From an uncultured Prevotellaceae bacterium (lineage in GTDB: Bacteria; Bacteroidota; Bacteroidia; Bacteroidales; Bacteroidaceae), in the NCBI GenBank assembly GCA_946539475.1, contig CAMNHM010000008.1, positions 1 to 43,349 on the forward strand: a DNA stretch of 43,349 nt, read 5' to 3'. A model generated the notes under the pieces. It was given only the letters and a program-made list of their open reading frames with translations, was not told the DNA's origin and searched no databases. Position 1 is the first letter of the stretch. Every line of letters begins with the position of its first letter. The position numbers and the translations under genes are program-made. This document shows, piece by piece, positions 1 to 29,355 of the stretch.

Positions 1-437
1 GCAAGCCCATCTTCGGTTACCTGCACAAGATGAGCGTGGTGCTGCCCAACAACTATCCGTCGGCCGACGGCAACCCCGTGTTCACGTTCATCAGCGACAT
101 CTGGCACCCCAACATCCGCTACTCGGGGTCGTTCAAGGGCCACGTGTGCCTGACAATCAAGGAGATGGGCGTGCTGGCTTCGATCAAGGACCTCGTGCTG
201 CGCGTGGAGCGCTATCTGAAATATCAGATGTATCACGCCCAGAACACCTACCCCTACCCTGAGGACCAGACGGTGGCTGAGTGGGTGCGCGACGAGGCTG
301 AGCCCAACGGATGGACGAAGTTCACCCAGGAGATGCCTCAGCCCGAGCAGAAGCCTCAGCCCGCTCCTGCCCCTGAGGCTGCTGCCGAGAAGCCAGCCGA
401 AGAGCAACCGAAGAAGATAATCACCCTAAGCATCTGA
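1..437 (+). CDS. E2 (UBC-like) ubiquitin-like conjugating enzyme, 5'-truncated by window edge
   Basis: The open frame runs in from the window edge (first full codon at 3), so the start and the N-terminal part of the E2 fold are missing; the ATG at 30 is internal. Seen: the E2 hallmark series of a P..YP..P...F strand, then HPN (codons 105-113), then a Gly-His-Val-Cys-Leu stretch whose Cys (codon 147-149) is where the E2 active-site cysteine sits, then C-terminal helices. A Pro/Ala/Glu-rich tail of about 35 residues follows. Known for the family: the Cys carries a ubiquitin-like protein as a thioester received from E1 and passes it to a lysine, often with a RING partner. Context is strong, because JAB, RING-like and E1 genes follow in the same operon. 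It ends 7 nt before the next gene. The Pro-rich tail is not typical of eukaryotic E2s. A modifier gene would be expected upstream of the window. Confidence 0.82.
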   Translation, partial: KPIFGYLHKMSVVLPNNYPSADGNPVFTFISDIWHPNIRYSGSFKGHVCLTIKEMGVLASIKDLVLRVERYLKYQMYHAQNTYPYPEDQTVAEWVRDEAEPNGWTKFTQEMPQPEQKPQPAPAPEAAAEKPAEEQPKKIITLSI

Positions 438-444
438 CCCGACT

Positions 445-1536
445 ATGAAGAAGCTACTACTATCCGCACTCTGCTGCCTGCTGTCGCTCAGCGGCTGGGC
501 CGACGAGCAGAGGAAGATCACGCTGAGCGGCGACAACCAGCAGGAGACGGTCTCGCTGTCGTACTGCAACATCTTCGTCACGCTCATCAATCCCGATGCC
601 GACGAGACGGCCAAGGTGCTCATCGAGGTGGAGAACCTCGACGAGTCGAAGCTCCTCGCCCTGTTCCACCAGCCTTACACGGAGAAGCAGGTGAAGAAGC
701 TGAGACCCTCGTTCAAGTACGACAAGCTCTTCGGTGGTACGAAGGGCAAGCGCATCATCGACCCTTGCAGCCTGACGATGACGAACGACGTCTTCGTCGA
801 GCCGTCGAACAAGTACAGCCTGCCCCACTTCAACGTGGAGGCTGAGCAGACGATGGTGGTGAAGCTGCCTATCTACATCGCCAAGTCGAAGAAGGACGGC
901 ATCATACAGCGCATCCTGGGCAAGGAGAAGCTCATCCTGCTGCGCAAGCAGGTCATCGAGCTCGACATCGAGGTGTCGATGAAGCCCTCGGCCGAGTACC
1001 TCGGTCTGCAGCAGGAGATTGAGACGCTGAAGAAAGACGTCAACAACACCGTCTTCTGCACCCACAGGAACCACCGCCAGTCGGTGGAGCAGCAGCAGGC
1101 TCCCTACAAAAAGCGCATCGACGAGCTGAAGGCCAAGATCGACGCTGCCATCAGCCAGCACGGCTGGGGTGGCAACGACGGCGGCTACCGTCGCTACATG
1201 GCGCTGAAGGACGTCATCGACCAGGACATCGACCTGAGCAAGCACCTGGGCACCTGCCGCCAGCATCGCGGCGGGCAGACACAGGCCGGCCACCAGTGCA
1301 GCTACTGCTCACTGTCGCTGCAGCAGATCTATCACCGTCTGGACGACCTCTACAAGAAGATCTACAGCAGCAGCGACCGCAAGGCTACGAAGGCCAGCGT
1401 CATCAGCCAGGTAAACGCCCTCTACAACTGCTGTACGGCCAGCGACTGCGCCAAGCACGCCTCGCAGTGGCGCAACGGCGGCGGAGGCTACAAGTCGAAG
1501 ATCACTGAACGTTACAACCGCATCCAAGGCCTATGA
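445..1536 (+). CDS. Exported coiled-coil protein with Cys/His-rich C-terminus, function unknown
   Basis: A 363-residue protein not matched to a family I know. A signal peptide is clear (MKK, hydrophobic core, ending near Ala-Asp at residue 19-20), so the mature protein is periplasmic or outer-membrane. The first half is probably beta-rich. Residues about 185-235 are charged and heptad-like, suggesting a coiled coil. The C-terminal third is Cys/His-rich: a CRQH motif, then a C-x2-C pair a short way on, then a CC-x4-C group, which could bind metal or form disulfides. It starts 7 nt after the E2 stop. Its stop overlaps the next start (ATGATGA at 1533-1539), so the two are probably translationally coupled. 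By position it is an envelope component of the E2/JAB/RING system, which is inference only. Confidence 0.75.
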   Translation: MKKLLLSALCCLLSLSGWADEQRKITLSGDNQQETVSLSYCNIFVTLINPDADETAKVLIEVENLDESKLLALFHQPYTEKQVKKLRPSFKYDKLFGGTKGKRIIDPCSLTMTNDVFVEPSNKYSLPHFNVEAEQTMVVKLPIYIAKSKKDGIIQRILGKEKLILLRKQVIELDIEVSMKPSAEYLGLQQEIETLKKDVNNTVFCTHRNHRQSVEQQQAPYKKRIDELKAKIDAAISQHGWGGNDGGYRRYMALKDVIDQDIDLSKHLGTCRQHRGGQTQAGHQCSYCSLSLQQIYHRLDDLYKKIYSSSDRKATKASVISQVNALYNCCTASDCAKHASQWRNGGGGYKSKITERYNRIQGL

Positions 1537-2999
1537 TGACGAAGTGGCTATCGCGTACTGCCGTCACTCTGGCCTGCCTGGCATGGACATCGACGGGCCA
1601 GTCGAAGGAGGTGAGGGACACGCTGTTCTCCTCCTCCGGCGACAGGGTCATCGTCGAATACAGCATCACGCAGAGCGGCGGCCAGACGACAGTGCGCTTC
1701 AACAGCATCCAGAAGAAGCTGGGCACGGCCAACCAGCGGGAATACAAGAAGCTGGACGAGGTGGCAGCGGTCATCTTCGACCGTACGGGCACCTACAACG
1801 ACATGAAGTTCAGCGGCATGACGCCCACGGCCTTCATGGTGCCCGCCGGCGTGCAGTATACGCCCTCCGGCGACGGCTATTTCCTGCTGCAGGACAACCC
1901 CACGCTACAATTCGCCTGCAGCAACGAGGCACACCTGAGCATTCCCCTCTACCTCGCCCACTATGAGAAGAAGCGTCACTACGAGATATTCAGCCAGTGT
2001 GGCGCCCTGCAGTTCTCGACGAAGGTCAGCGGTGGCAGTGGTGGCGGAGGCAGAAGCCGCAGCGGAGGACGCAGCGGAGTGAGTGCTGCCAATGCCGACG
2101 ACATCATCGTCAGCGAGGAGCTCACCGACGAGGGGCTGACGCCTGTTGACGATGCCCTGATCACGATTGCCAACGTCCGCAGCCAGCTGCAGGGCGTCAC
2201 GAAGCTGCCCTTCCCCGAGGACCTCACCTTCCAGGCCAACCACCTGAGGGAGCTGCGCAGCCGCATCTCCGACATGAGTGTCCTGCAGGACATCAACTCC
2301 GTTCTCGCTGCCTACGACAAGCGGAAGGCAGAGCTGGAGGAGGGTGCTGCCGCCCAGCAGCAGGCCGCCGCCGCAGCCGCCCAGCAGGCAGCCAAGGAGG
2401 AGGCCGCCGCCCAGCAGGCCCGCCAGGACTCCATCCAGGCTGCCCAGGAGAAGAAAGCCGACGAGAAGCAGAAGGACATGATGTGGCTCATCGGCGGTAT
2501 TGCCGGCCTGGGGGTATTGCTCATGGGCGGCAAGCAGATCTTCCAGAGCATCAAGAACAACAAGATGCAGCGGCTGATGATGGACAACATCAACAAGGCG
2601 CAGCAGCAGGCCCTGGGCAACGTGAAGATTCCCGGACTCGACGACAACCCGCTGACGAAGGACATCAACGCCCAGTTGCAACGCGAGGCCCGCAAGACGC
2701 TGACGAAGGAGGGCGAGGCAGCCAAGCAGCGCCTCCAGGCCCTGCGCAAGGGCAACACCGCTGAAGCCCCCACGAATCCCACTCAGCCCACCCAATCCCC
2801 TCAGCCCACACCCCCTGCCACTCCCGGCAAGCGCCCACTGCGCACCGTCAGCCAGGTGAAGGCTGAAGCTGGCCTCGACCCCGCCAAGAGCGCTGGTCTG
2901 GAAATCAGCGCCAAGCCTCACAAGCCGTCGCTCAACGACGCTATCCCTGCAAAGTACAAGCGCTGGCGTAAGCCAGGTACGCCTGATAGCAACAAATAA
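1533..2999 (+). CDS. Signal-peptide protein with single membrane span and long cytoplasmic tail, function unknown
   Basis: A 488-residue protein with an N-terminal signal peptide (ending near residue 24). It has a predicted extracytoplasmic region to about residue 315, interrupted by a Gly/Ser/Arg-rich linker near 163-185. An Ala/Gln/Glu-rich helical stretch at about 265-312 leads into one hydrophobic segment (about 316-337). A basic tail follows, with a Pro/Thr/Gln-rich linker near 410-430. This gives a periplasm-to-cytoplasm topology shared with the next two proteins in the operon. ATG 1533 overlaps the upstream stop by 4 nt. No enzyme motif was recognised. It may be a structural link between envelope and cytosolic parts, comparable in role to membrane-complex proteins of T6SS, but I see no homology that proves it. 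The low-complexity Ala/Gln run could be slippage-prone. Confidence 0.75.
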   Translation: MMTKWLSRTAVTLACLAWTSTGQSKEVRDTLFSSSGDRVIVEYSITQSGGQTTVRFNSIQKKLGTANQREYKKLDEVAAVIFDRTGTYNDMKFSGMTPTAFMVPAGVQYTPSGDGYFLLQDNPTLQFACSNEAHLSIPLYLAHYEKKRHYEIFSQCGALQFSTKVSGGSGGGGRSRSGGRSGVSAANADDIIVSEELTDEGLTPVDDALITIANVRSQLQGVTKLPFPEDLTFQANHLRELRSRISDMSVLQDINSVLAAYDKRKAELEEGAAAQQQAAAAAAQQAAKEEAAAQQARQDSIQAAQEKKADEKQKDMMWLIGGIAGLGVLLMGGKQIFQSIKNNKMQRLMMDNINKAQQQALGNVKIPGLDDNPLTKDINAQLQREARKTLTKEGEAAKQRLQALRKGNTAEAPTNPTQPTQSPQPTPPATPGKRPLRTVSQVKAEAGLDPAKSAGLEISAKPHKPSLNDAIPAKYKRWRKPGTPDSNK

Positions 3000-3026
3000 C
3001 CCAACGTCAACCATACACATACACAC

Positions 3027-4862
3027 ATGAAACAGATTCAAGCATTCGCACTATTCCTTGCACTGCTCCTCATACCAGGTTGGCAATCCGACGTGCAGGC
3101 TGCCAGACGGCAGAAGGCACCTGCGCCGGCACAGCCTGTCGTCGAGGTGATGGATGCCTTCCGACAGTACGTTCAGGCCGACCCGTTCCTTGCCGACAAG
3201 GCCCAGAAGGACATCAGCAACCAGATAGAGAAATACCTCGACGACCTGCTGAACAGGAAGGACAAGGCTGAATATATCGAGAAGAACAGCCTCAGAGACT
3301 ATGTCGCCGACCAGCGGCAGAAGCTCGAGGAGTACAAAGGGCAGAGCTCGCTCATCATCGAGAACATCCTCGAACGATACGAAGACCTGGAGGCTCAGAT
3401 GCGTGTCGCCTACCGTGACTCCATGCAGGTAGCCCTCGACGACAAGTTCACTGCCCTCGACAACAACCTTAAGCGGCTCGACGACGAGATCAACCTAAAG
3501 GACGACCCGTCACTCATCGACTGGGAGCACCTGCCCTGGAAGTGGATTGGCATCGCCTTGGGAGCACTACTGCTGCTCATCATCGTCTGTGTCGTCATCA
3601 GCAAGAGCAAGAAGGGCGACAAGAAAGGCTATCGCCCTGCGCCCCCCACTCCACGGAGCGCCACGGGCAGCTACGGCGCGCGTCCTGCTGCCGGCGGCCT
3701 GCAGACATCGTCCGACGGAGGCATCGTCGTGCGCCGTAAGACGGCAACCATCCTGAAGAAACAGAGCCTCGAGGACGTCATCGACAATCCCAACTACCTG
3801 CAGGTGGATGCCATCGACTTCACCTACGAGTCGGCCGTGCGTCGCATGTACATCAAGAACTCGTGCATCGTCGACATCTATAACATGTACGCTGACGACC
3901 TGCGCAACCCCGAGAGTCCGAAGGAGGACGGCTGCATGGTGCTCGGCCGATGGGTCCACGACCCTGAAAGCAACGAGTACTATGTCTCGCTGGAGGAGAT
4001 CGTGCTGCCCGGCGACGATGCCGTCTTTGAAGAGTATGCCCTGAACTTCGGCGGAAAGATCAAGCTGAAGGTGCTCGAGCAGCTGCGCAAGCTGCGCCGT
4101 GAGACCAACCTGCAGTACGACCTCACCTGCTGGGTGCACTCCCATCCTGGGCTGGGCGTCTTCTTCAGCAACAGCGACACCTCCGTGCAGGATCAGCTGA
4201 AGCATCCCACCCACCCCAACTTCCTCACCGCCATCGTCGTCGACATCCTCACGCCGATGCAGGACTTAGGCATCTTCACCTACCGTCGCGACACGACCAT
4301 CAACTCAAAGCAAGACCTGAAGAAGATGTATTCGCTCGTGGAGTGGTACCAGTGGGCACAGGACAGCATGAAGACCGCCATCGAGCGCCCCGTGGCCGCC
4401 ACGCCGAAGGAGTTCACTCCTGTCGACTACTTCAACACGCTTGCCAATGCTGCCGAGCACAACGACAGCTGCTACGGCGTGGAGCTGAGCAAGAACGTCA
4501 TCGTCGACATCTGTACCGACCTCATCGGACAGGGCGACGACATCATGGCCATGCTTCATGGCGTTGCCAGCCAGCATGGCTCGCAGATAGAATATGTGGC
4601 TGAGAAAGTATCGGAGAAGGAGGTGGAGCCCAAGCTCAGCCTCACCGGCTGCTTCATTGCCGCTCCCCACTGCAGCATCCCGACGGTGCGCCGTGCCGTG
4701 GCCGACTATCTCGACAGGATCCGCTTCGTGCTGGTCTACACGCCTGGCGACGGTCTGCTGACCACCATCCCCGTCATCAACAGCGACCTCTGCACCGAGG
4801 AGAGCTACTACGGAGAACAGAAACTCGAAGATTTGAAATCATGGATAAAACAAGGCAGATAA
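3027..4862 (+). CDS. Membrane-anchored JAB/JAMM-domain isopeptidase
   Basis: A 611-residue protein. A signal peptide (to about residue 25) is followed by a charged, probably coiled-coil extracytoplasmic part (about 45-165), one membrane span (about 173-192) and a cytosolic JAB (MPN+) domain from about 255 to 430. The zinc motif is complete: E300 in a Glu-Asp-Gly-Cys-Met-Val-Leu-Gly context, H371-Ser-H373, then ten residues to D384. Known for the family: JAMM metalloproteases remove ubiquitin-like modifiers from lysines or trim modifier precursors. Here it is tethered to the inner membrane with its active site predicted in the cytoplasm, next to E2, RING-like and E1 proteins. About 180 further residues follow the JAB core and I do not recognise them. 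It overlaps the next gene at TAATG (4860-4864). Confidence in the JAB assignment is high; topology is inferred from hydropathy. Confidence 0.88.
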   Translation: MKQIQAFALFLALLLIPGWQSDVQAARRQKAPAPAQPVVEVMDAFRQYVQADPFLADKAQKDISNQIEKYLDDLLNRKDKAEYIEKNSLRDYVADQRQKLEEYKGQSSLIIENILERYEDLEAQMRVAYRDSMQVALDDKFTALDNNLKRLDDEINLKDDPSLIDWEHLPWKWIGIALGALLLLIIVCVVISKSKKGDKKGYRPAPPTPRSATGSYGARPAAGGLQTSSDGGIVVRRKTATILKKQSLEDVIDNPNYLQVDAIDFTYESAVRRMYIKNSCIVDIYNMYADDLRNPESPKEDGCMVLGRWVHDPESNEYYVSLEEIVLPGDDAVFEEYALNFGGKIKLKVLEQLRKLRRETNLQYDLTCWVHSHPGLGVFFSNSDTSVQDQLKHPTHPNFLTAIVVDILTPMQDLGIFTYRRDTTINSKQDLKKMYSLVEWYQWAQDSMKTAIERPVAATPKEFTPVDYFNTLANAAEHNDSCYGVELSKNVIVDICTDLIGQGDDIMAMLHGVASQHGSQIEYVAEKVSEKEVEPKLSLTGCFIAAPHCSIPTVRRAVADYLDRIRFVLVYTPGDGLLTTIPVINSDLCTEESYYGEQKLEDLKSWIKQGR

Positions 4863-7240
4863 TGATGAAAAAGCTTTTGTTGGCCTGCACCCTGCTAGCA
4901 AGCATGATGCAGGCGAGTGCGCAGGACGTGAAGAGCATCCAGTTCTGTGACAAGAAATATGAGTATGCACAGGGTAAGGACAGCATCACGCTGTTCCTGA
5001 AGGTGCTCGACAGCGACGGCAACTCCAGCAAGGATGTCAGAGCCAGCGACCTGGAGAAATACCTGGTGATGTATGAGGATGAGAAGCCCATCTCGCCCGA
5101 CCGCTGCAAGATCAGCGCCCTGAGCTCCGGACAGCGTATCCCCAACGACTTCACCTTCTCGGTGCTTGTCGACATGAGCATTCCCGAAGAGGGAAAGGGA
5201 CAGATCTACGACGCTGTGGGACAGCTCGTCGAGAGTGCTCCCGACAGCTGCGTCTACCTGTCGTTCTTTGGCGACAACGTGACATCGAGCCAGCTCGTCA
5301 CGAAGCGCAACTTCAAGGATTTCGAAGCGATGTTCCACCAGCGCTCCGACAACAAGTTCTTCTACGGCGCCCTTTATTCGAAGCTAGCGGAGTTTGCCGA
5401 GGAGAAAGCCGAACTGGAGGACTCGGTCATCACCGCCGATGGCTACGAGCGCAACAGCGTCATCGCCAAGCGTGCGAAGATGGCCCAGGACAAGAACCTG
5501 CTCTTCGTCTTCACCGAAGGCAACATACGGCCTGCCGACGAGCTGATCTCGTTCATCGAGGTGACCGACTATCAGTCGAACGCCACGCATGTCGTTCCGA
5601 AAGTCTACGCGCTGTACTATACCGGTGAGGGCGTCGACGAGAATGTGGAGCTGACGCTGCAAGGAGTGTCGGCCCCCCGCGATGCCAACGGCAGCGTGCT
5701 CAGCGATCGCCAAGGAGCCTACAAGCCCAGCAACGACCTGAGCAGTGTGCTCTCGAGCTTCCAGCAGGTGGTGAAGGACGCCATGTACGACTTTGCCTAT
5801 TCCTATCGTGCCACGAAGGACAAGACGTACACCGGGCTCGTCAACTATACCACTGAGTGGAAAGGCATGGAGGCCGGCAAGGGCGAATACACCATCGGCT
5901 CAGCTGAGACGCCCTGGCCTGTGAAGGCCGAGACCACCGGCTCGATCATCACGAAGATCCTCGTGGCCCTGCTCATCGCCCTGCTCACCTATGCCTTCTT
6001 CTTCCTCATCATGAAGGTCGTCATCCCCTATGTGAAGTCGAAGCGTTTCACGATGAAGTATTACAAGAAGTATGAGCCCGAGGCCAACGTCCAGCGCCGT
6101 ATCTGTACCTACTGTCGGCAGGACATCGAACCCGGTCAGCTCGTCGTGACGAAGTGCAAGCACATCATGCACGTCGGGTGCTGGCAGCAGAACGGCTACA
6201 AATGTGTGGAGTACGGACAAAACTGTAAGGACGGCATCCAGGACCACGTGGAGTGGAAGGAGATGTTCAGCAAGACATCACTGCGCGAGACCTACCAGAC
6301 GCTGGCAGGCATCCTCGCTGCCCTGGTCAGCTGGATCATTTTCGAGCTGACGGGCCGCGGCCTGTTCCACGGCATGGGTGCAGGCATCGCCAATGCCTTC
6401 TTCACCAACGAGGAGCAGAAGCTGAACCTCATGAACGACTGCACCAACAAGGTATCGGCATTCCTCACCATCGGATTGCTGCTGGGATTCTTCCTGTCAC
6501 TCGTGTTCCGCTATTTCGACGAGTATCGCAAGAAGGACGCGATGATCTACCTGAAGATTGTCGGGCTATCGCTGCTCTCTGGCATCATCGGCATGGCAGC
6601 AATGGCCGTCGGTGGCATCATCTTCTGCCTGCTGCTCTCGGCTGTCGGCACCACCTATATCCCCTGGTACTGCTCGCTGCCGGCCTATATCCTCTTCTCA
6701 GTCTGCGTGGCATTAAGCCTGACCATCAAGTCGTCGATTCCCATGAAGAGTGCCTTGCTGGGCGGCCTCATCTCTGCCGGTATCGGATTCCTGGTGCTCA
6801 TCAGTGGTTCGATAGGCAATGTCGGATGGCTCAACATGCTGCTCGACTTCATCATCTACGGCGGTGGACTGGGAGCATCGCTCGTCACCGTGCGAATGTT
6901 GGCTGAGCGCTACTTCCTCATCATCAAGAATGGCGTGAAGGCCGGTCAGAAGATTCCTATCCACAAGTGGATGAACGCCACTGGTGGCGGCAACAAGGTG
7001 AGCATTGGTGCTACCGGCGAGTGCGAGGTGCAAATGAACTGGGAGAAGAGCAACAAGGTGGCCAAGGAGCACGTGCAGCTCTATATCGACCAGGTAAAGA
7101 CGCTGCCCATGCTGAAGGCTCTTGCCACGGGCGTCATCTACAACATGCGCACCGAGCTGCCCATCAGCAAGCCAACGGTTCTCACCAACGGCGACACGTT
7201 CAAGATTGGCGACACGATCTTCGAATACGTGGAGAATTAA
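4862..7240 (+). CDS. VWA-like / RING-like / polytopic membrane / FHA-like fusion, candidate E3 or scaffold
   Basis: A 792-residue protein (start ATG 4862 chosen because the signal peptide begins there; ATG 4841 in frame is possible). Parts in order: signal peptide; VWA-like domain about 98-260 with a degenerate metal site (Asp104-x-Ser106); first membrane span about 360-390; RING-H2-like finger with C415-x2-C418, C432-x-H434, H437-x2-C440, C448 and C455; about six further membrane spans (roughly 480-690); and a C-terminal FHA-like domain (about 711-792) with an Ile-Gly strand near its start, a Thr-Asn-Gly-Asp turn and a final Ile-Gly-Asp-Thr strand. The last RING pair is spaced by six rather than two residues. 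Known: RING domains hold E2s as E3 ligases, and FHA domains bind phosphothreonine. Together with the E2, E1 and kinase in this operon it is the natural candidate for a phospho-regulated membrane E3. Confidence 0.85.
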   Translation: MMKKLLLACTLLASMMQASAQDVKSIQFCDKKYEYAQGKDSITLFLKVLDSDGNSSKDVRASDLEKYLVMYEDEKPISPDRCKISALSSGQRIPNDFTFSVLVDMSIPEEGKGQIYDAVGQLVESAPDSCVYLSFFGDNVTSSQLVTKRNFKDFEAMFHQRSDNKFFYGALYSKLAEFAEEKAELEDSVITADGYERNSVIAKRAKMAQDKNLLFVFTEGNIRPADELISFIEVTDYQSNATHVVPKVYALYYTGEGVDENVELTLQGVSAPRDANGSVLSDRQGAYKPSNDLSSVLSSFQQVVKDAMYDFAYSYRATKDKTYTGLVNYTTEWKGMEAGKGEYTIGSAETPWPVKAETTGSIITKILVALLIALLTYAFFFLIMKVVIPYVKSKRFTMKYYKKYEPEANVQRRICTYCRQDIEPGQLVVTKCKHIMHVGCWQQNGYKCVEYGQNCKDGIQDHVEWKEMFSKTSLRETYQTLAGILAALVSWIIFELTGRGLFHGMGAGIANAFFTNEEQKLNLMNDCTNKVSAFLTIGLLLGFFLSLVFRYFDEYRKKDAMIYLKIVGLSLLSGIIGMAAMAVGGIIFCLLLSAVGTTYIPWYCSLPAYILFSVCVALSLTIKSSIPMKSALLGGLISAGIGFLVLISGSIGNVGWLNMLLDFIIYGGGLGASLVTVRMLAERYFLIIKNGVKAGQKIPIHKWMNATGGGNKVSIGATGECEVQMNWEKSNKVAKEHVQLYIDQVKTLPMLKALATGVIYNMRTELPISKPTVLTNGDTFKIGDTIFEYVEN

Positions 7241-7316
7241 TTTCGGGAGCCCGGGATCCCGAAGCCACGAGATCCCGAAACCCCGAAACCCCGTCTAACC
7301 CCGAGCCCCAAAAACT

Positions 7317-9504: not shown

Positions 9505-9510
9505 ACCCAT

Positions 9511-10524: not shown

Positions 10525-11015
10525 GCTTCATCAACACGCCCCTCGCCTATCATGACTCGGGTCTCACCCTGAAGCGTGACATCGCCGACCGTATAGGCAT
10601 GCTCGACAATCTCATCGAGCTCATCGTTTTCACGCCGCGGGGATCGTTCGTGGGCGACCCTGACTTTGGATTCGAATACTGGAACCACGAGTATGCCAAC
10701 GTGCACTACCGCGAATTTAACATCAGCCAGACCGGAAAGATTGCCAACGGCCTATACAACGAGGTGACGAAGAAAGAGTGCGAGGACAGTATCCGCATCA
10801 GCCTGGCCACCTATGAGCCCATGCTGAAGAATGTCGTCGTATCTATCGAGCTCGACACCGCCGACGGAAAAAACGTCCGCCGGAAGAAGGTTGTATCGAA
10901 ATACGAGGTCAACGTCGTCGTCGAAGGAAGCCTCGACGACGGCCTGGGCACCGTCGTCCCCTACCGCAAGAGTGTTGTCTTCCTGATCGAGCCAACGGTG
11001 AAGCGCTACCACTAG
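10521..11015 (+). CDS. TssE-like / gp25-family baseplate protein
   Basis: A 164-residue protein. It shows the gp25/TssE (GPW) pattern: a helical start (RDIADRIGMLDNLIELIVFTPRG-type run, where phage W and T6SS proteins have an Asn-Ile...Leu-Leu-x-Thr-Pro-x-Gly motif), a D-P-D-F-G-F turn matching the usual Pro-x-[FY]-Gly, and a later YEPMLKNVVV strand corresponding to the family EPR-L strand. The conserved Arg of EPR is replaced by Met here. Known role: gp25/TssE lies at the inner edge of the baseplate and nucleates the sheath. It starts inside the preceding stop (ATGA). No membrane segment. Confidence is good because both flanking genes are baseplate-like. Confidence 0.82.
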   Translation: MSFINTPLAYHDSGLTLKRDIADRIGMLDNLIELIVFTPRGSFVGDPDFGFEYWNHEYANVHYREFNISQTGKIANGLYNEVTKKECEDSIRISLATYEPMLKNVVVSIELDTADGKNVRRKKVVSKYEVNVVVEGSLDDGLGTVVPYRKSVVFLIEPTVKRYH

Positions 11016-11048
11016 AACACTCTCTACTCCCAGAACAACAATCCCCCT

Positions 11049-12839
11049 ATGGATATAGAACTTCAGAAAAGAATCAACGACGCTGTCATCGCACTTGGAC
11101 AACTGTCGGCACAGCCCATCGACTTCCAACAGATGGACCCTGTTGCAAAGATGATGCTCGTCGCGCTGGTATGTGAGACGCAAAAGATACAAGACTACGT
11201 CGACGGCACTACTGAGCGTATCGTCGACCGCTTCTGCGTCGACTTCATCCCCCGTCAGAACGTCGAGGCCACGCCTGCCGTCTGCCTGCTATGCCCAGAG
11301 CTGAAAGCACGGAGCGGCGGGGCAATGGCTACCACAGGATCGGGCGACATCTTCAGCTATAAGATGCCCAACAGCAAGCTGCCGCTCAACTATATTCCCA
11401 TTTTCAACACCACCCTCCTGCCCCACAGCGGTCTGTATCTGCTCAACCAGCGCATCCTCCGTCATGGCGGCGATGCCATCAACATCAGCATGGAGAAGCC
11501 AAACCGCCTGTGGGTAGGCATCAAGACTGCCACGGAGGTCGACAGCCTCAAAGGAATCTCCATGCTCATACGAGGCACGGAAGGAGTGATGCCCAGCCAC
11601 ATCAGCGTCGCCACAGTAGGCCAGGAGCTCGACTTCTCCACCATGAGCGAGATGGAAAATATCGAGATGGCTGAGCCCTTCGATGCCCAGCAGGGCTCCA
11701 ACCAGTTCTTCTCACTCATCGAGAACTGGAAGGAGAACCTGCTCAACATCGACAATGCGGCCCTCCTTTATATCACCGACGAAGCCGTCGACCGCGACCT
11801 CTTCAAGCCGCGCCCCTATCCACGACAGTTCCAGCAGTGGCTCGAGAGCGAAGTGCTCGACTATTTCGAGCCTTCCACCATCTGGCTGCGCCTGGACTTC
11901 CCCGAAGGCTTCGACGTGCCCGACGACTGCCAGGTGATGCTCAACACGCTGCCTGTGACCAATATCGATGTCAACTCGCTCATGCTCACGCAGACGCAGC
12001 CCATCGCCAAGTTGCAGAAGACCGACGAGTCGTTCTTCCTGCGCATCCTCGAGACCAGCGCCTCGAGCCATCGCCAGGGCTTCGCCATGACCAACGACGA
12101 GATCATCGTACGCGACTTCGATGCCCAGTGCTACAACAACGGGCATCTCTATCGCGACGTTCGAAACCTCTACAACCGCTTCATCGACGACTACTATGCT
12201 TTCATCGAGTACAACGGCATCAAGGATGGTGAGGTGCTCCGACAGTTGCGCGAGACCATCAACAAACTCGGAAAGAGCGTCGGGCAACAGAACGAGAAAT
12301 TCAAGTTCGACAGTGGCACCTACGTCATGAAGAACATGAGCCAATATCCGCCCACATCGTCGACACGCGTCAGCTATATCACCACCATGGGACGTATCGG
12401 CAACACCCCGCGTGCCGGCGAGCAGCTCGAGAACAAGAAGAACCCTGCACTCGAACAGAAAGCCGACATCGTCGTCTCGGCCATGGGAGGAACGGACAAG
12501 GCAACAGCCGATGAACGCTATGAGCAGCTACGCTACTATGCCCTCACCAACGATCGCCTATACACTCGCATGGACATCGATGCCTTCCTGCGCAAAGAGC
12601 TCCTGGCGGAGTTCGGCAAGGAAGAGTTCCGGCGTATATTTATCAAGATCAGCATCGAGGGAGCCGGTGGTGCCGACAGCCTTCAGCGAGGACTCTACAT
12701 CGACATCGAGTTCAAGGACCGCAAGAACTACGAGCACGCCCGACGTATGTCCTTCGACCATCTGCTGCTGCAGCGCATACGCAACAAGTCATGCATCGCT
12801 ATGCCTATTCATATCAAACTAAGAAACCTCGAGGAATGA
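11049..12839 (+). CDS. TssF-like (ImpG/VasA) baseplate wedge protein
   Basis: A 596-residue protein, close to the usual TssF length. The N-terminus has the TssF arrangement: a Met-Asp-Pro motif followed by a helix (about 33-70), then a Phe-Ile-Pro-Arg-Gln segment where TssF has its Tyr-Pro-His-Tyr-like stretch, then a Pro-Ala strand. The long remainder is mixed beta/alpha, as expected for the wedge protein that forms the bulk of the baseplate with TssG. It has no signal peptide and no membrane span. Its stop overlaps the next ATG (ATGA at 12836-12839). Order tssG-tssK-tssE-tssF in one operon supports the assignment of all four. Confidence 0.72.
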   Translation: MDIELQKRINDAVIALGQLSAQPIDFQQMDPVAKMMLVALVCETQKIQDYVDGTTERIVDRFCVDFIPRQNVEATPAVCLLCPELKARSGGAMATTGSGDIFSYKMPNSKLPLNYIPIFNTTLLPHSGLYLLNQRILRHGGDAINISMEKPNRLWVGIKTATEVDSLKGISMLIRGTEGVMPSHISVATVGQELDFSTMSEMENIEMAEPFDAQQGSNQFFSLIENWKENLLNIDNAALLYITDEAVDRDLFKPRPYPRQFQQWLESEVLDYFEPSTIWLRLDFPEGFDVPDDCQVMLNTLPVTNIDVNSLMLTQTQPIAKLQKTDESFFLRILETSASSHRQGFAMTNDEIIVRDFDAQCYNNGHLYRDVRNLYNRFIDDYYAFIEYNGIKDGEVLRQLRETINKLGKSVGQQNEKFKFDSGTYVMKNMSQYPPTSSTRVSYITTMGRIGNTPRAGEQLENKKNPALEQKADIVVSAMGGTDKATADERYEQLRYYALTNDRLYTRMDIDAFLRKELLAEFGKEEFRRIFIKISIEGAGGADSLQRGLYIDIEFKDRKNYEHARRMSFDHLLLQRIRNKSCIAMPIHIKLRNLEE

Positions 12840-13819
12840 AACGCATCATCAGCATCGTCATCCTTGCCGTCACGGCACTGCCGGCAATGCTCCGTGCACA
12901 GTCGTCGGCCGACATCCTGGCCTATATCGACAAGTACAAGCAGATAGCCCTCGACCAGGAACGGCAGTACGGCATCCCGGCACCCATCACCCTCGCTCAG
13001 GGAATCCTGGAGTCGGGGGCTGGCAAGAGCGGACTGACACGCAACTCCAACAACCATTTCGGCGTGAAGGCCCTCGGCGGATGGAGCGGCGGCGTCTACA
13101 AGGCATGGGACGACGAGCCGCAGAAGAGCTCCTTCCGCGTCTATGCCTCAGCAGCAGAGTCGTTCCGCGACCACTCCCTCGTGCTGAAGAACAGCAGCCG
13201 CTATCGCAGCCTCTTCTCGAAAAGCATCTATGACTATCGCGGATGGGCCATCGGCCTGCAACGCGCCGGATATGCCACTGCCAAGAACTATGCCGCCGCC
13301 CTCATAGGATTTATCGACACCTATCGACTCTATGCCATCAACGGCGGCGTGAAGCTACGGGCTGGCAAGACCGTCATCATCAAGCAGGCGGCCAGCACGG
13401 CAACGCCCACCTTCGACGAATCGTGCCAGATGAATGACGAGGAGCAATCGGAAGAGGAGCAGACCGTCCAGAAAGCCATCACCCGCTATGTCGTCGAGAT
13501 CAACGACATCAGCTGCACCATCCTCTACCCCGGCACTACCCTCTCCTCCATTGCCATGCAGTACGACATTCCGAAGGACAAGCTTTTGGAGTTCAACGAA
13601 GTAGTCGTAGAGGAGGAGTTGCACGAAGGCGACATCATCTTCCTCGACCGCAAGAAGAAAAAGTACGAAGGCGCGAAAGACTTCTACTACGTCCGCCCCG
13701 ACGACACGCTCTACTCCATCTCGCAAGAGTACGGCATCAAAGTCACCAATCTGGCAAAGATGAACGACATGGACATCTCCGAGAAGCTCTACGAGGGCAC
13801 AAAGCTGCGCCTCAAATAA
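12836..13819 (+). CDS. Exported N-acetylglucosaminidase (GH73-like) with two LysM domains
   Basis: A 327-residue protein from ATG 12836 (the upstream in-frame ATG 12791 lies inside tssF-like and would spoil the signal peptide). Signal peptide to about residue 22. The FlgJ/Bax-type glucosaminidase domain covers about 28-165, with the catalytic Glu59 in ILESGAGKSGL, a Asn-Asn-His-Phe-Gly-Val-Lys motif and a Tyr-Ala-Thr-Ala-Lys-Asn-Tyr motif. Two LysM domains follow (about 222-275 and 283-327), each starting with a Tyr-x-x-Asp/Gly-Thr-Leu-type helix cue. It cuts peptidoglycan glycan strands. Next to baseplate genes it would be expected to open the wall locally for the apparatus, as flagellar FlgJ or phage lysins do; that link is inference. 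Confidence 0.88.
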   Translation: MKRIISIVILAVTALPAMLRAQSSADILAYIDKYKQIALDQERQYGIPAPITLAQGILESGAGKSGLTRNSNNHFGVKALGGWSGGVYKAWDDEPQKSSFRVYASAAESFRDHSLVLKNSSRYRSLFSKSIYDYRGWAIGLQRAGYATAKNYAAALIGFIDTYRLYAINGGVKLRAGKTVIIKQAASTATPTFDESCQMNDEEQSEEEQTVQKAITRYVVEINDISCTILYPGTTLSSIAMQYDIPKDKLLEFNEVVVEEELHEGDIIFLDRKKKKYEGAKDFYYVRPDDTLYSISQEYGIKVTNLAKMNDMDISEKLYEGTKLRLK

Positions 13820-13871
13820 TACCGTGATACCGAGATACCGAGAAATCGAAAAAAAGAAATTAAAAGAAACA

Positions 13872-15389
13872 ATGCTCGACCTTGAACTTTTCGCCGCTAG
13901 CGGCAAACCATTCGACAGCCACTACATGCTGATCCGTCCGCTCAGTACAGATGGCGGAACAGCCGACGTATGGCTGGCACTCGACCTGAACACCGTCAAA
14001 GACCAGTCCGCGTTGGGGAACATCACCCGACTCCCCGACGACGAGATAGAGAAGTACGGACTTATTGTCGCCATCAAGATCTATCGCCCACAGAACGCGC
14101 TCGACATCGAAGGCGAGCAGCGCTTCAGAGAGGAGTATATGATTGTGTTCAACTGTCACCACACCAATCTGATCCACCCTACACACTTCTCCATCTATCA
14201 CGACACGCCCTATCTTGTGCTGCCCTACTGCAAGCAGGGCTCTTCCGACCAGTTCGTCGGCAACATGACCGACCCCGACATGGTGTGGAAGTTCATTGGC
14301 GACGTATCGGCAGGATTGGCGTATCTACACGCACTCAACCCGCCCATCATCCACCAGGATGTCAAACCAGGCAATGTGCTAATCGACGACAACAACAACT
14401 ACTCCATCACCGACTTCGGCATCAGTGCCAAACACGGCGGAGGAGCAAGCGACACCAGCGAGGAAGAGGAGCGGAGCGGCACGATGGCATATATGTCGCC
14501 AGAGCGTTTCCAGGAAGGAACGGAGCCTAGTGCCCCTGGCGACATCTGGGCACTCGGTGCCACACTCTGCGAGCTCATCACTGGCAAGATGCCCTTCAAC
14601 GAGGAGGGGGGATGGGCACAAGTTGAGCAGCAGTCGCCGATGCCCGACCTGCCAGGCATGCCCCCCGACATTCTCCGGCTGGTACACGCATGTCTGGACA
14701 TCGACCCAGAGAAACGACCCACGGCGCAATATATCAGCGAGGCAGCACAAGCCCGACAGTACCCCATCAAGCGGAAGAAGACCGGGCTCATCGTCACGCT
14801 CATCGCACTCTGCGCCCTGCTCATCGGCGTGGCAGCCTCATTCCTTCTGCCCAAGGACGAGAAGGTTCAGATCATCAAGGAGGCTGAGCAACGCCTGCCA
14901 CCCGAGGTGGTGTATGCTACGGCCATAGCTCAGATGAGCTATGCCGATGCCGACTCGCTGCAAGCTGGCATCAACCTCATGGACAGCCTCAGCGCCACCA
15001 ACTACGTTCCCGCACTCTATCAGATGGCATTCACCTACGGATGGTATTCCGACAGCGTCTCTGTCAACCGCAAGCAGCTGCTCGGCATCGACATCTTCAC
15101 CAGCGGCGACAGTAAATACCTGCCTAAGAGCGACAGATGGAGCAACAAGGCCGTTGCGCTCTTCACCAACATCCTCGAGCAGAACGACACTGCCCATGCC
15201 AGCCTCAATGCCGATGCTGCCTATCGCCTGGCCTGCTACTATGAGGTTCCCAACAGCATTTTCCAGCGCAACGAGGAGAAAGCGAAGAAGTTCCTGCTCA
15301 TCGCCAAGGACTGGGCAGAGATAGCTGCCGACGCCACCCTCCTGGAACGCGTAAAAGGCGGACTGGAGCGGCTTGGAGTGAAATACTGA
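13872..15389 (+). CDS. Transmembrane Ser/Thr protein kinase with TPR/Sel1-like periplasmic region
   Basis: A 505-residue protein from ATG 13872, chosen over GTG 13824 because the kinase fold begins right after. Seen: Gly-rich loop (TDGGTADVW, about 32-40), VAIK with Lys69, catalytic loop H161-Gln-Asp163-Val-Lys165-Pro-Gly-Asn168, DFG with Asp181, a Met-Ser-Pro-Glu (APE-like) motif and a Gly-Asp-Ile-Trp-Ala-Leu-Gly helix. The Arg of the usual HRD is Gln, so this is a non-RD kinase. A membrane span (about 305-326) separates the cytosolic kinase from about 180 residues with TPR/Sel1-like helices outside. With the PP2C phosphatase at 17238 and the FHA-like domain at 4862 it forms a phospho-signalling set like PpkA-PppA-Fha in T6SS. 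ATP and protein Ser/Thr are the substrates. Confidence 0.92.
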   Translation: MLDLELFAASGKPFDSHYMLIRPLSTDGGTADVWLALDLNTVKDQSALGNITRLPDDEIEKYGLIVAIKIYRPQNALDIEGEQRFREEYMIVFNCHHTNLIHPTHFSIYHDTPYLVLPYCKQGSSDQFVGNMTDPDMVWKFIGDVSAGLAYLHALNPPIIHQDVKPGNVLIDDNNNYSITDFGISAKHGGGASDTSEEEERSGTMAYMSPERFQEGTEPSAPGDIWALGATLCELITGKMPFNEEGGWAQVEQQSPMPDLPGMPPDILRLVHACLDIDPEKRPTAQYISEAAQARQYPIKRKKTGLIVTLIALCALLIGVAASFLLPKDEKVQIIKEAEQRLPPEVVYATAIAQMSYADADSLQAGINLMDSLSATNYVPALYQMAFTYGWYSDSVSVNRKQLLGIDIFTSGDSKYLPKSDRWSNKAVALFTNILEQNDTAHASLNADAAYRLACYYEVPNSIFQRNEEKAKKFLLIAKDWAEIAADATLLERVKGGLERLGVKY

Positions 15390-15429
15390 GATCACGAAAA
15401 AACATATTATCTGACGAACATCTTGCATC

Positions 15430-17223
15430 ATGACACACCACGCAACTCGTCCGAATAGAGTCCACAGAAGTCCGTGGCTTCTACTATTGGCTATCATCGC
15501 ACCATTGTCAGTTCATGCACAGGTGGCGCAGTGGCTCATCCCTCCCCATTTCGACGAGATAGAGTTTCCTGCCGATGCCAACATCGCCATCACCGACTCG
15601 GCTAACGTCTCCACCATTTGGAGCCTGAAGGGTCGCCGCCTGCTCACCACTACCGAGATGGTGCACCCCTACTCCGACGGCCATGTCGTCACCACAGGCT
15701 ACGACGATGCCTATATCACCGGCATCTACGATGCCAATGGCACGCCGGTACCCTTCGAGAAGGTACAGCTGGGATGGGGCTACCCCTGTTTCCACGACGG
15801 TCATCTGCTTGTCCACGACGGCCACTATTTCCACTATATGGATGTCAACGGCAATGTCGACAACACCCTGTTCTGGCGAGCCTATCCCTTCTCGCAAGGC
15901 TATGCCTCATGCTTCACCTTCAAGGACCTGCGCAAGCAGAAAGACCCGTACTATCTGCTCATCGGCCGTGACCTCAGGCCTGTCGCCCTCTCTCTGGAAG
16001 GGAAGGCGTTGGGGCAGGATGATCCTGAGTTCATCTCGTCCTTCAACGACGAGGGGATGGCCATCATTGCCATTAAGCATCGCCTCTACCGCATCGATGC
16101 CGCCACCCTTGGCATCACCCCTTTCTATGCCGACGAGCAGGCAGAGAGCCAGAAGAGTCAAGCACGTGTCGACGGCGATGTCAGCCAGTGGCTCACCAAC
16201 CGCGAGGATTCGGCCCTCATCAAAGCGAAATGCGGGAAGACGACAGTGCAAATCACGCTCGACGATATGCTACGCCCGCTCGCCGTCACCACTGACGGCC
16301 GTCGCCATGAGTACCAGCGGAAGAGTGGCATACGTTTCGACGACAACTCCACCTTCACCACTCGAGAGACGCCAAGCGGCAAAGTCGGTTTTATGCAAGG
16401 CGACCGCGAGCTGCTGCCTCCCCAGTTCGACAAGGCGCTCTACATTTTCGGACAGCGTGCCCTCGTCGTCTTCAACGGAAAGTACGGCCTGCTGGAGATC
16501 CATCCCGACGACAGTCTGCGCCTCAGCCTGAACAAGGGCAATCCTGTTGCCTTCCGTCACCGCCGTTTCGACACAACCATCCGCATCGACATGCCCAGCT
16601 ATATCAATCCCGACGACACCAGCATCGAGCTCGACGGTCAGGCCGACTGCGTCATCGACAAGATATCGAAGGCCACACGGACCACGGAGTTTGGCAATTC
16701 GGTAGAATATAAGTGCGTGCTCAACATCCCACAGACCATCCCCGACGACGAGACCATAGAGCTCACCTATCCTCTCTATATCGTCCACGAGGGCCTGCGC
16801 ACGCCACTCACTTCCGTCAAGGTCGACGCCTGGCGTTATAAGTACCACAACGTCGACGTCAGCAACAAAGAGTCGTCCATCGCCAACGGCTCGCTCACCT
16901 TCTGCACCGATATCAGTGCTGAGCGCCTGCCGGGCGAGGACCTCTATCCCTACACCTGCAAGCTCGTCACCGAGTCGCTGCGATGGGAGTTCGTCGAGAA
17001 GGTCTCAGAGACACGCTACAAGTGGAAGGTCTACGACCTGAAGGAAGGTACCAACAACATCATCGTACAGATTCTTGAGGACGGCTGCCCGCCTGCCGAC
17101 TACACGTTCGAGGTCGACTATCAGCGACCTGTCGTCCCCACTGCCACCAACACTCCCGTCGTGCTAAAGGAGAAGAAGAAGAAGGCGACCACGCCTCCCG
17201 TCAAGCGTCATCTTGAGATCTAA
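15430..17223 (+). CDS. Exported WG-repeat-like protein with beta-rich C-terminus
   Basis: A 597-residue protein with a long basic start and a hydrophobic signal (about 14-30, ending Val-His-Ala-Gln). The region to about 370 carries repeated beta units of the WG-repeat type: for example a Gly-Lys-Val-Gly-Phe strand then a Leu-Leu-Pro-Pro-Gln-Phe-Asp-Lys turn, then Ala-Leu-Val-Val-Phe and Gly-Lys-Tyr-Gly-Leu. The rest (about 375-560) is beta-rich and may be Ig-like domains. A Lys-rich stretch sits near the C-terminus. Such proteins are often ligand- or protein-binding in the envelope. Placement between kinase and phosphatase genes suggests it works with the kinase sensor region, which is inference. 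It starts 40 nt after the kinase stop and ends 14 nt before the phosphatase ATG. Confidence 0.7.
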   Translation: MTHHATRPNRVHRSPWLLLLAIIAPLSVHAQVAQWLIPPHFDEIEFPADANIAITDSANVSTIWSLKGRRLLTTTEMVHPYSDGHVVTTGYDDAYITGIYDANGTPVPFEKVQLGWGYPCFHDGHLLVHDGHYFHYMDVNGNVDNTLFWRAYPFSQGYASCFTFKDLRKQKDPYYLLIGRDLRPVALSLEGKALGQDDPEFISSFNDEGMAIIAIKHRLYRIDAATLGITPFYADEQAESQKSQARVDGDVSQWLTNREDSALIKAKCGKTTVQITLDDMLRPLAVTTDGRRHEYQRKSGIRFDDNSTFTTRETPSGKVGFMQGDRELLPPQFDKALYIFGQRALVVFNGKYGLLEIHPDDSLRLSLNKGNPVAFRHRRFDTTIRIDMPSYINPDDTSIELDGQADCVIDKISKATRTTEFGNSVEYKCVLNIPQTIPDDETIELTYPLYIVHEGLRTPLTSVKVDAWRYKYHNVDVSNKESSIANGSLTFCTDISAERLPGEDLYPYTCKLVTESLRWEFVEKVSETRYKWKVYDLKEGTNNIIVQILEDGCPPADYTFEVDYQRPVVPTATNTPVVLKEKKKKATTPPVKRHLEI

Positions 17224-17237
17224 CCATCCGCACCGCC

Positions 17238-18107
17238 ATGAAAATCAGCATCTCAGCAACCACCGACGTGGGCCGTGGGCGTGAGAACAACGAGGACGCC
17301 TTCGTCTTCTGCCCCGACCTCTCCAACCCGCAGTGGCATCTCAGCGACACCGATGGCTACATCCCCCTCGGCCCTCTGGGCACACTCATCATCGTCGCCG
17401 ACGGCATGGGTGGTGCCAATGCCGGCGAGGTAGCATCGGCCGTCGCCACACAGACCATCCGCGAGGTTTTCACCTCAGCGCCACTCGCCGACATCATCAC
17501 AAGCGACGACAGCATACGGCAGCTCCTCGCGCATGCCATCAAAAAGGCTGACGAGGCCATCAACCTCAAGGTCTTCGACAGCCCCGACACAGCTGGCATG
17601 GGCACCACCATCGTCGTCTGCTGGATTACTCCGGCAAAAGCTTATGCCGCCTGGTGTGGCGACAGTCGCTGCTATCGTTATAACGATGTTGAGGGACTGC
17701 TGCCGCTCACCAAGGACCACTCCTACGTGCAGGAGCTCATCGACCGTGGTGAGCTCACCGAGGAGCAGGCATTCACCCATCCCGACAACAACATCATCAC
17801 ACGCGGCCTTGGCGACTTCGACACACTGGTGGCACCAGACATCAACGTCAGCGCCGTCAGCCCTTCCGACGTGTTCCTTCTCTGCTCCGACGGCCTGTGC
17901 GGATACTGCACCAACGACCAGATAGCCGCCATCCTCGCTGAGGGTCACGGCAACACCCGACGCTGCGCACAGCACTTACTGCAGAAGGCACTCGACGTGC
18001 CGGGCGACGACAACATCTGCATCGTCGTTGCCTCTGTCCTCGACGACGCGGCCTCCCCCCGCAGCGAGTCCTCCATCCGACATTTCTTCTCCAGGCTATT
18101 CGGCTGA
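17238..18107 (+). CDS. PP2C-family Ser/Thr protein phosphatase (PppA-like)
   Basis: A 289-residue cytosolic protein with all PP2C metal motifs: Arg15-Glu-Asn-Asn-Glu-Asp20, Ala54-Asp55-Gly-Met-Gly-Gly59, Gly-Asp142-Ser-Arg, Leu-Cys-Ser-Asp218-Gly-Leu and Gly-Asp257-Asp258-Asn. It removes phosphate from Ser/Thr using two Mn/Mg ions. It is the last gene of the operon and the natural counterpart of the kinase at 13872; in T6SS of Pseudomonas type the pair PpkA/PppA controls firing through an FHA protein. The ATG is 14 nt after the preceding stop. It is followed by a strong terminator hairpin at 18146. About 30 residues after the catalytic core are Arg/Ser-rich and hydrophobic, perhaps a membrane or protein contact. 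Confidence 0.95.
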   Translation: MKISISATTDVGRGRENNEDAFVFCPDLSNPQWHLSDTDGYIPLGPLGTLIIVADGMGGANAGEVASAVATQTIREVFTSAPLADIITSDDSIRQLLAHAIKKADEAINLKVFDSPDTAGMGTTIVVCWITPAKAYAAWCGDSRCYRYNDVEGLLPLTKDHSYVQELIDRGELTEEQAFTHPDNNIITRGLGDFDTLVAPDINVSAVSPSDVFLLCSDGLCGYCTNDQIAAILAEGHGNTRRCAQHLLQKALDVPGDDNICIVVASVLDDAASPRSESSIRHFFSRLFG

Positions 18108-18145
18108 TTCCTTATCTTCGGTCGCACAGCGATAGACATAGAAAG

Positions 18146-18184
18146 ACGAAGGGGGTGTGTCAAAATAGGCACACCCTCCTTCGT
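18146..18184. terminator. Shared bidirectional hairpin between convergent operons
   Basis: A 14-bp stem with one bulged A (arms 18146-18159 and 18170-18184) encloses a 10-nt loop. It lies between the PP2C stop (18107, + strand) and the end of the fimbrial operon (18201, - strand), so it can end transcription from both sides. The U-run after the stem is short in both directions. Confidence 0.75.
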
Positions 18185-26389: not shown

Positions 26390-26395
26390 ACTCGT

Positions 26396-28039: not shown

Positions 28040-28069
28040 ACTGTCGTTATTGTCTTTTTTTTAGAAGGT

Positions 28070-29236: not shown

Positions 29237-29305
29237 TCTAACGTTTTGTTTATGTATCTATACGTTCTGTATGTATGTCGCGTCGTGAAAGCGGGTTTGT
29301 GGAAA

Positions 29306-29336
29306 GGTGGCCGGCGCCCGCGTAGCGCCGGCCATC
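29306..29336. terminator. GC-rich hairpin after the major fimbrillin gene (attenuator)
   Basis: Arms 29306-29317 and 29325-29336 form about 12 bp, nearly all G-C, round a 7-nt loop. For - strand transcription the U-run after the stem is poor, so partial termination or mRNA end protection is more likely than a full stop. It sits in the only long gap (119 nt) inside the fimbrial operon, between the major subunit and the anchor gene. Confidence 0.6.
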
Positions 29337-29355
29337 TTTTATGCGAATAGTAAGC

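Follow-up and report, generated by a model that had tools for sequence, protein, structure and literature searches.

The 43,349-nucleotide stretch analyzed here (contig CAMNHM010000008.1 of an uncultured Prevotellaceae bacterium; hereafter, the window) opens with a single plus-strand operon, at positions 3–18107, that joins a kit of ubiquitin-like conjugation genes to genes for the baseplate of a type VI secretion system (T6SS), a contractile machine with which bacteria inject toxins. We read it, with about even chances of being right, as a T6SS whose operon encodes a cascade for a ubiquitin-like protein (Ubl), in which the known membrane-complex proteins TssN, TssO and TssR are undetected and reversible attachment of the Ubl probably docks the baseplate at the inner membrane and releases it. 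The kit genes stand in a kept order, their catalytic motifs are intact and the Ubl ends in a bare glycine; the Ubl and tail genes, as all genes 5′ of window position 1, were read from relatives only.

The operon consists of thirteen complete genes and an E2 gene whose 5′ part is cut by the window edge, just as an earlier, sequence-only reading of this DNA had listed. That reading also described the genes as joined mostly by 4-nt overlaps or short gaps. Short gaps (4–76 bp) are indeed present. By the listed starts, 4-nt overlaps occur only twice (1533/1536 and 10521/10524), next to overlaps of 22, 26 and 49 nt, and "mostly 4-nt overlaps" was therefore a loose description.

Conservation of the Operon

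When species genomes were scanned with the TssF alignment, 63 stretches matched, and a relative is encoded in 56 of them (below, G and L numbers label the genomes and the locus stretches compared, respectively). Most carriers are metagenome assemblies of ruminant Prevotellaceae and other Bacteroidales, and Barnesiella sp. An22, apparently an isolate, is also among them; the kit-bearing T6SS is found in rumen and gut Bacteroidales. Homologues numbered 934 for the TssF-like protein, 470 for the Ubl and 412 for E2, and details given for these three lists refer to the best 120 of each.

The genes for JAB, RING, E1, TssG, TssK, TssE and TssF are colinear in 54 of 54 untruncated loci, i.e., those in which all seven genes are complete (L021 and L042, which are contig ends, were dropped). 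This kept order is beyond chance. With TssF as bait, E1 was found beside it in 55 of 56 loci, the exception being the contig end L021. Across the 54 loci, pairwise distances of the kit proteins correlated with those of TssF at r of 0.85 (E1), 0.87 (RING) and 0.88 (JAB), while the maxima reached in permutations were 0.26, 0.39 and 0.20, respectively. The distances of E1, RING and JAB thus follow those of TssF, as expected for co-inherited genes. E1 is the more conserved of the two, with a mean distance of 0.25 versus 0.42 for TssF. The union of a ubiquitin-like kit and a T6SS-like baseplate in one operon, the central claim of the sequence-only reading, is real and conserved.

The Secretion Machine

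A search upstream of position 1 for a Ubl, Hcp, TssB/C, VgrG and ClpV had been proposed, and in relatives all of these positions are filled directly upstream. The upstream half was followed in 22 genomes chosen from the 56 loci and read gene by gene in L057 and L066, family names coming from scans of L057. The order in both is ClpV-position ATPase, TssB-like protein, TssC, Hcp, second Hcp, VgrG, PAAR-like protein, effector region, a further gene, Ubl and E2. E2 is present in 22/22 of the relatives' genomes, and TssC (PF17541) in the same 22, in 20 of them on the same contig. Hcp (PF17642) and VgrG domains were found in L057, where TssB is named by position, no family match having been obtained in the scan. 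The Clp ATPase at the ClpV position of L057 scores higher as ClpB (3e-172) than as TssH (3e-137), both below cut-off. Since genes for sheath, tube and spike lie upstream in relatives, the machine is a T6SS. The second Hcp of L057 (4812–6965) makes up the C-terminal ~130 residues of a protein of 717 aa, preceded by a long apolipoprotein-like helical repeat.

The baseplate genes of the window are those of a TssG-like protein (8599–9504, +), a TssK-like protein with a Pro-rich tail (9511–10524, +), a TssE/gp25-like protein (10521–11015, +) and a TssF-like protein (11049–12839, +). The names proposed from the sequence alone hold by profile for TssK and TssE and, through a relative, for TssF; that of TssG is weak. 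TssK matched NCBIfam TssK at 5.7e-5, below cut-off, as was its Pfam match, and the best four rows of its PDB profile search were all TssK (0.008–0.057). TssE matched GPW_gp25 at 4.9e-4, also below cut-off, and gp25 in the PDB profile search at 1e-4. The TssF and TssG proteins of the window taken alone had no Pfam match, and the PDB profile searches gave none for either. L078, a divergent member of the TssF family, lies above the Pfam TssF cut-off (8e-7).

The Conjugation Kit

The E2-like fragment (3–437, +) comprises the 3′ part of the gene, with the HPN...C signature at about 105–149 and a Pro/Lys-rich tail. It shares 94% identity with the full-length E2 of G001, the nearest relative, and matched UQ_con at 4.7e-6, just under the Pfam cut-off. 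HPN..C is kept in 21/21 rows (17 distinct), and the family profile retrieved eukaryotic E2s at 7e-7, a Toxoplasma E2 and UBE2K being the nearest. Both E2 and TssK (9511–10524) carry a Pro/Lys-rich linker followed by a short basic-hydrophobic end; the shared tail is perhaps a common docking peptide.

The E1-like activating enzyme (7317–8624, +) matched ThiF at 4e-47 and carries a CxxC motif and a C-terminal extension. The best rows of its family profile search were UBA7, UBA6 and UBA1 (2.7e-29). Cys186 (7872–7874) is invariant in the alignment and is likely the catalytic cysteine. Identity with CBASS Cap2 was rejected, the E1 scoring 39.5 bits against the NCBIfam cap2_3 cut-off of 320, and so was membership of the kit in a PADLOC defence system: E1 alone matched (E1-E2 models), with 0/6 of the partners scanned.

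The JAMM/JAB isopeptidase-like protein (3027–4862, +) is predicted to consist of an N-terminal periplasmic part, a transmembrane (TM) helix at residues 174–192 and a cytosolic JAB domain with the JAMM motif HxHP..SxxD at 4137–4178. The window protein alone falls below the Pfam cut-off; the family profile retrieved Rpn11 as the nearest match (4e-9), and also CSN5 and AMSH. The motif is present in 54/54 homologues, and the E, HxH, S and D columns are invariant in the 18 that were aligned. The next gene (4841–7240, +) encodes a vWA–TM–RING–TM–FHA protein with a predicted periplasmic vWA domain (~5123–5791), a TM segment, a RING-like zinc site (~6104–6226), a multi-TM region and a C-terminal FHA domain (~6953–7234). 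The pattern of zinc ligands occurs in 56/57 rows, with one spacing variant.

In relatives, the Ubl is a protein of ~108 aa that ends in IAG in 17/17 rows (15 distinct), and so does the divergent Ubl of G190. Among the best 120 of the 470 homologues, the C-terminus is AG in 118, PG in one and an extension in one. The Ubl profile matches ubiquitins weakly, with C-termini in register. A structural model of low confidence (predicted local distance difference test score of 52) gave mostly ubiquitin-fold rows in Foldseek, the first being Caldiarchaeum ubiquitin (E 0.016). The Ubl of a distant kit matched the Pfam families YukD (1.3e-5) and ubiquitin (9e-4), both below cut-off. Judging from these motifs, the catalytic apparatus of the kit looks intact.

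Three relatives have second Ubl copies on the minus strand between the effector region and the true Ubl (L062:1961–2884, L071:2186–2905 and L072:2605–2988). All three copies are without the terminal AG, and those of L062 and L071 continue into an unrelated C-terminal part.

Membrane-Complex Genes and Kits Outside the T6SS

TssN was above cut-off in 0/22 kit genomes (four weaker matches lay on other contigs) and in neither G065 nor G190. TssO was found in 0/14 kit genomes versus 5/5 of the TssN genomes asked (the sixth, G158, was left out). Two surveys were made around G019: an order survey of 294 genomes of its order, of which it is the centre, and a phylum survey of 394 genomes. The order survey found TssC in 13 genomes and E2 in four (G019, G065, G190 and G036). 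TssN was above cut-off in six of the 12 TssC genomes besides G019, and none of the six carries E2. Despite their strong divergence, G065 and G190 retain the order ClpV-TssB-TssC-Hcp-VgrG-Ubl-E2-JAB-RING-E1-TssG-K-E-F.

In the phylum survey, the E2 profile matched G019, G379 and G473. No TssC was found in the latter two. Instead, they have E1-Ubl-E2-JAB-vWA/FHA genes and, ~2 kb away, the PAAR gene of an extracellular contractile injection system (eCIS). The distance from PAAR to E1 is 1.94 and 1.97 kb, one NTPase gene separates the kit from PAAR, and the injection genes lie on the opposite strand. The eCIS parts confirmed by Pfam are sheath, tube, spike, gp25, PAAR and eCIS-core in G379 and sheath, gp25 and PAAR in G473; the distance between the kit and the sheath gene, of Phage_sheath_1C type, is 21 kb in G379 and 44 kb in G473. 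The Ubl C-termini are VPG and VPGGK, respectively. Since the kit is located beside a T6SS and beside an eCIS, it follows that genomes with two different contractile machines carry it. At the place of the RING site, the vWA-FHA proteins of the eCIS-linked kits (L091:847–3228 and L093:1825–4173) have RRDPITQD, which is reminiscent of a zinc-free U-box.

G036 (L081 and L094) has a kit of the order E1-Ubl-E2-x-JAB-RING beside SrfB (PF07520), followed by additional Ubl-like and JAB-like genes. In the Ubl of this kit, IAG is extended by four residues, as if trimming were needed.

The sequence-only reading had expected the two halves to be linked in related genomes. This holds for the 55 of 56 TssF loci with E1 and for four of the five E2-bearing survey genomes besides G019, in which the kit adjoins a contractile system (a T6SS in G065 and G190, an eCIS in G379 and G473). 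The exceptions are G036, a kit without TssC, and G254, G261, G272 and G275, which have TssC without E2.

A Model for the Ubl Cycle and Its Alternatives

We propose that E1 would adenylate the C-terminal glycine of the Ubl and transfer the Ubl to the E2 cysteine, and that the vWA–TM–RING–TM–FHA protein would recruit the charged E2 to the membrane complex. There, a tail or baseplate protein would receive the Ubl, with TssK as the favoured candidate. The membrane JAMM protein would take the Ubl off again, allowing machines to be recycled, and a kinase and a PP2C phosphatase encoded downstream, with the FHA domain as reader, may gate the cycle. The cytoplasmic domain of TssN of the Bacteroidota T6SSiii recruits TssK and is called ubiquitin-like (PMC10781749); a separate, conjugatable Ubl would do the docking work that this ubiquitin-fold domain does in the B. 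fragilis T6SSiii. Both the attachment target and the phospho-control, which the sequence-only reading had likewise put forward, we infer from sequence, and its interpretation as a whole is partly supported.

Several observations weigh against this proposal. On the side of the kit, the last pair of the RING site is an unusual C-x6-C, and RING profile matches are weak, the window protein being below the Pfam cut-off; in G379 and G473, the site has lost some of its cysteines. The Ubl ends in AG and not GG. In G036, the kit is found beside SrfB and without TssC, a sheath-like match lying on another contig. On the side of the machine, TssG is the least secure name, resting mostly on position; a divergent family member, L084, matched Pfam TssG at 9e-4, below cut-off. 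As for the membrane complex, TssR was found in 0/14 kit genomes, yet only 2/5 of the TssN genomes score, which makes this a weak test; the searches covered TssN, TssO and TssR, and none was made for TssP or TssQ. The completeness of the surveyed genomes is not stated in the counts of absent genes. Finally, G254, G261, G272 and G275, out of the 13 TssC genomes, carry neither the kit E2 nor TssN (in G272 and G275, TssC lies at a contig end or on a short contig), and lack of TssN therefore needs no kit. In the related T6SS of G261, no kit genes were seen in the stretches read. By eye, that T6SS (L082 and L083), which has neither kit nor TssN, includes a kinase-like/FHA-like protein, a further FHA-like protein and an M23-like peptidase.

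Four other explanations can be set against reversible docking of the baseplate. One, which we consider unlikely, is that the Ubl tags effectors or spike proteins for loading or delivery, the baseplate not being its target. The Ubl gene does lie directly downstream of the effector/PAAR region, where the second copies of L062 and L071 run into unrelated C-terminal parts. However, fused copies are present in only 2 of 15 distinct Ubl-bearing stretches, and RING and JAMM, both predicted membrane proteins, are encoded between the Ubl and the baseplate genes. It is quite unlikely that the Ubl marks spent or faulty sheath or baseplate for disassembly by the ClpV-position ATPase or for turnover. Such quality control would fit with proteasomal Rpn11 as the nearest relative of the JAMM protein and with the Clp ATPase at the operon head in relatives, but the stretches read contained no recognisable protease partner, and the missing genes are those of the known membrane complex, not turnover genes. 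In an improbable alternative, the Ubl is not conjugated but serves as a free adaptor for docking, comparable to YukD or the TssN domain, with E1 and E2 as scaffolds. YukD is reported not to be covalently conjugated (PMC1779556). A structural role, however, would not require that the catalytic cysteines of E1 and E2, the JAMM ligands and the terminal glycine all be kept. It is very improbable that the kit represents an unrelated island, anti-phage or otherwise, located in a T6SS operon by chance: its E1 does resemble PADLOC E1-E2 models (best 4e-15) and G036 holds a kit without a T6SS, but at 0.01 no PADLOC model is matched by E2, JAB, RING, Ubl or either of the two envelope proteins, gene order is kept across divergent loci, TssN and TssO are undetected in kit genomes and the same kit adjoins an eCIS.

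Extended beyond the T6SS, reversible docking leads to a tentative generalization, which we hold at slightly under even chances: Ubl conjugation may be a recurrent control layer of Bacteroidota contractile machines, a single membrane-anchored E1-E2-RING-JAMM-Ubl kit serving a T6SS lineage, where it would have replaced the TssN-type membrane complex, as well as the eCIS, with covalent attachment of the Ubl acting as the switch for fastening and freeing the weapon. Secretion machines are controlled by phosphorylation, second messengers and transcription. A built-in Ubl cycle, with eukaryote-like E1 and E2 and an Rpn11-like JAMM protein on a membrane complex, would, if true, mean that a bacterial nanomachine is controlled by a new principle, and bacterial E1-E2-RING-JAMM operons would gain a testable role outside defence. 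The matter also bears on baseplate docking in the T6SS of Bacteroidota, where a ubiquitin-fold domain, that of TssN, already docks, and on the origin of eukaryote-like ubiquitin enzymes.

Other Genes of the Operon and Its Surroundings

Two predicted envelope proteins without family are encoded between E2 and JAB. The first, Cys-rich and predicted to be periplasmic (445–1536, +; signal-peptide-like start), has a partial tblastn match in 39/56 loci, most loci starting within the gene. The second (1533–2999, +) has a signal-peptide-like start, a basic C-terminal part and, by eye, a hydrophobic stretch near residue 317 that is below the TM cut-off; a complete homologous frame is present in 38/56 loci.

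Downstream of TssF follow a glucosaminidase with LysM domains (12791–13819, +; Pfam 4e-33 and 1e-16, above cut-off), a Ser/Thr protein kinase with one TM helix at residues 322–340 (13824–15389, +; Pkinase 6e-40, above cut-off), a WG-repeat protein with a signal-peptide-like start (15430–17223, +; WG_beta_rep 1.9e-5, just under cut-off) and a PP2C-type protein phosphatase (17238–18107, +; PP2C_2 1.4e-13, above cut-off). These accessory genes are more variable, with complete frames in 47/56 (kinase), 40/56 (PP2C) and 37/56 (WG protein) loci, some of which end earlier. Beyond the operon and facing it, a 2080-aa protein (18686–24928, −) is encoded on the same strand as two Mfa2 and fimbrillin gene pairs (24944–31398, −).

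Comparison with Known Systems

In the open-access literature, judged by titles and the openings of abstracts (subscription papers and preprints being outside this scope), no T6SS or eCIS linked to an E1/E2/JAMM kit was found among the papers listed (two of the lists covered 15 of 55 and 10 of 65 matches), in agreement with the impression of the sequence-only reading that such a fusion had not been described. The T6SSiii of Bacteroidota (B. fragilis type, TssNQOPR) has TssC and Hcp of the same Pfam families, PF17541 and PF17642, and shares the TssK/F/G/E baseplate. It differs in that here TssN, TssO and TssR are undetected, TssG and TssK are adjacent with no TssN between them, and Ubl, E1, E2, RING and JAMM are added. 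In T6SSiii, a vWA domain belongs to TssR and a ubiquitin-fold domain to TssN (PMC10781749); in the kit, a vWA domain is part of the RING protein.

The eCIS of G379 and G473 shares the kit neighbourhood, but its sheath is of Phage_sheath_1C type, in contrast to the TssC-type sheath of the relatives of the window. Burroughs, Iyer and Aravind have reportedly described RING and YukD versions of predicted Ubl operons. The set of E1, E2, JAB and Ubl (and RING) is like that of the predicted prokaryotic operons, as far as the accessible part of that work goes (PMC1779556). There, the context given for YukD Ubls is ESAT-6 export, not a contractile system (PMC1779556, same part), whereas here RING and JAMM are predicted membrane proteins in a T6SS operon.

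The ubiquitin cascade of Caldiarchaeum likewise comprises E1, E2, RING, an Rpn11-like JAMM protein and a Ubl; it is archaeal, and no secretion system is named in the available parts of the two reports (PMC5654768, PMC6043591). Caldiarchaeum proteins rank high both for the Ubl model in Foldseek and for the JAMM profile. Cap2/Cap3 of the cyclic oligonucleotide-based antiphage signalling system (CBASS), Bil and Bub are bacterial defence conjugation systems. They resemble the kit in E1 and E2 chemistry and in JAB, to judge from the accessible part of the source (PMC10097602), and BubCD structures are among the E1 profile matches. Unlike them, the kit has separate E1 and E2, a membrane RING-like protein and a T6SS context. 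Predicted E1-E2-JAB-Ubl operons and T6SSiii are each already known. Going by its gene content, we would file the operon as a T6SS variant with a ubiquitin-like cascade, outside T6SSiii as defined by TssNQOPR.

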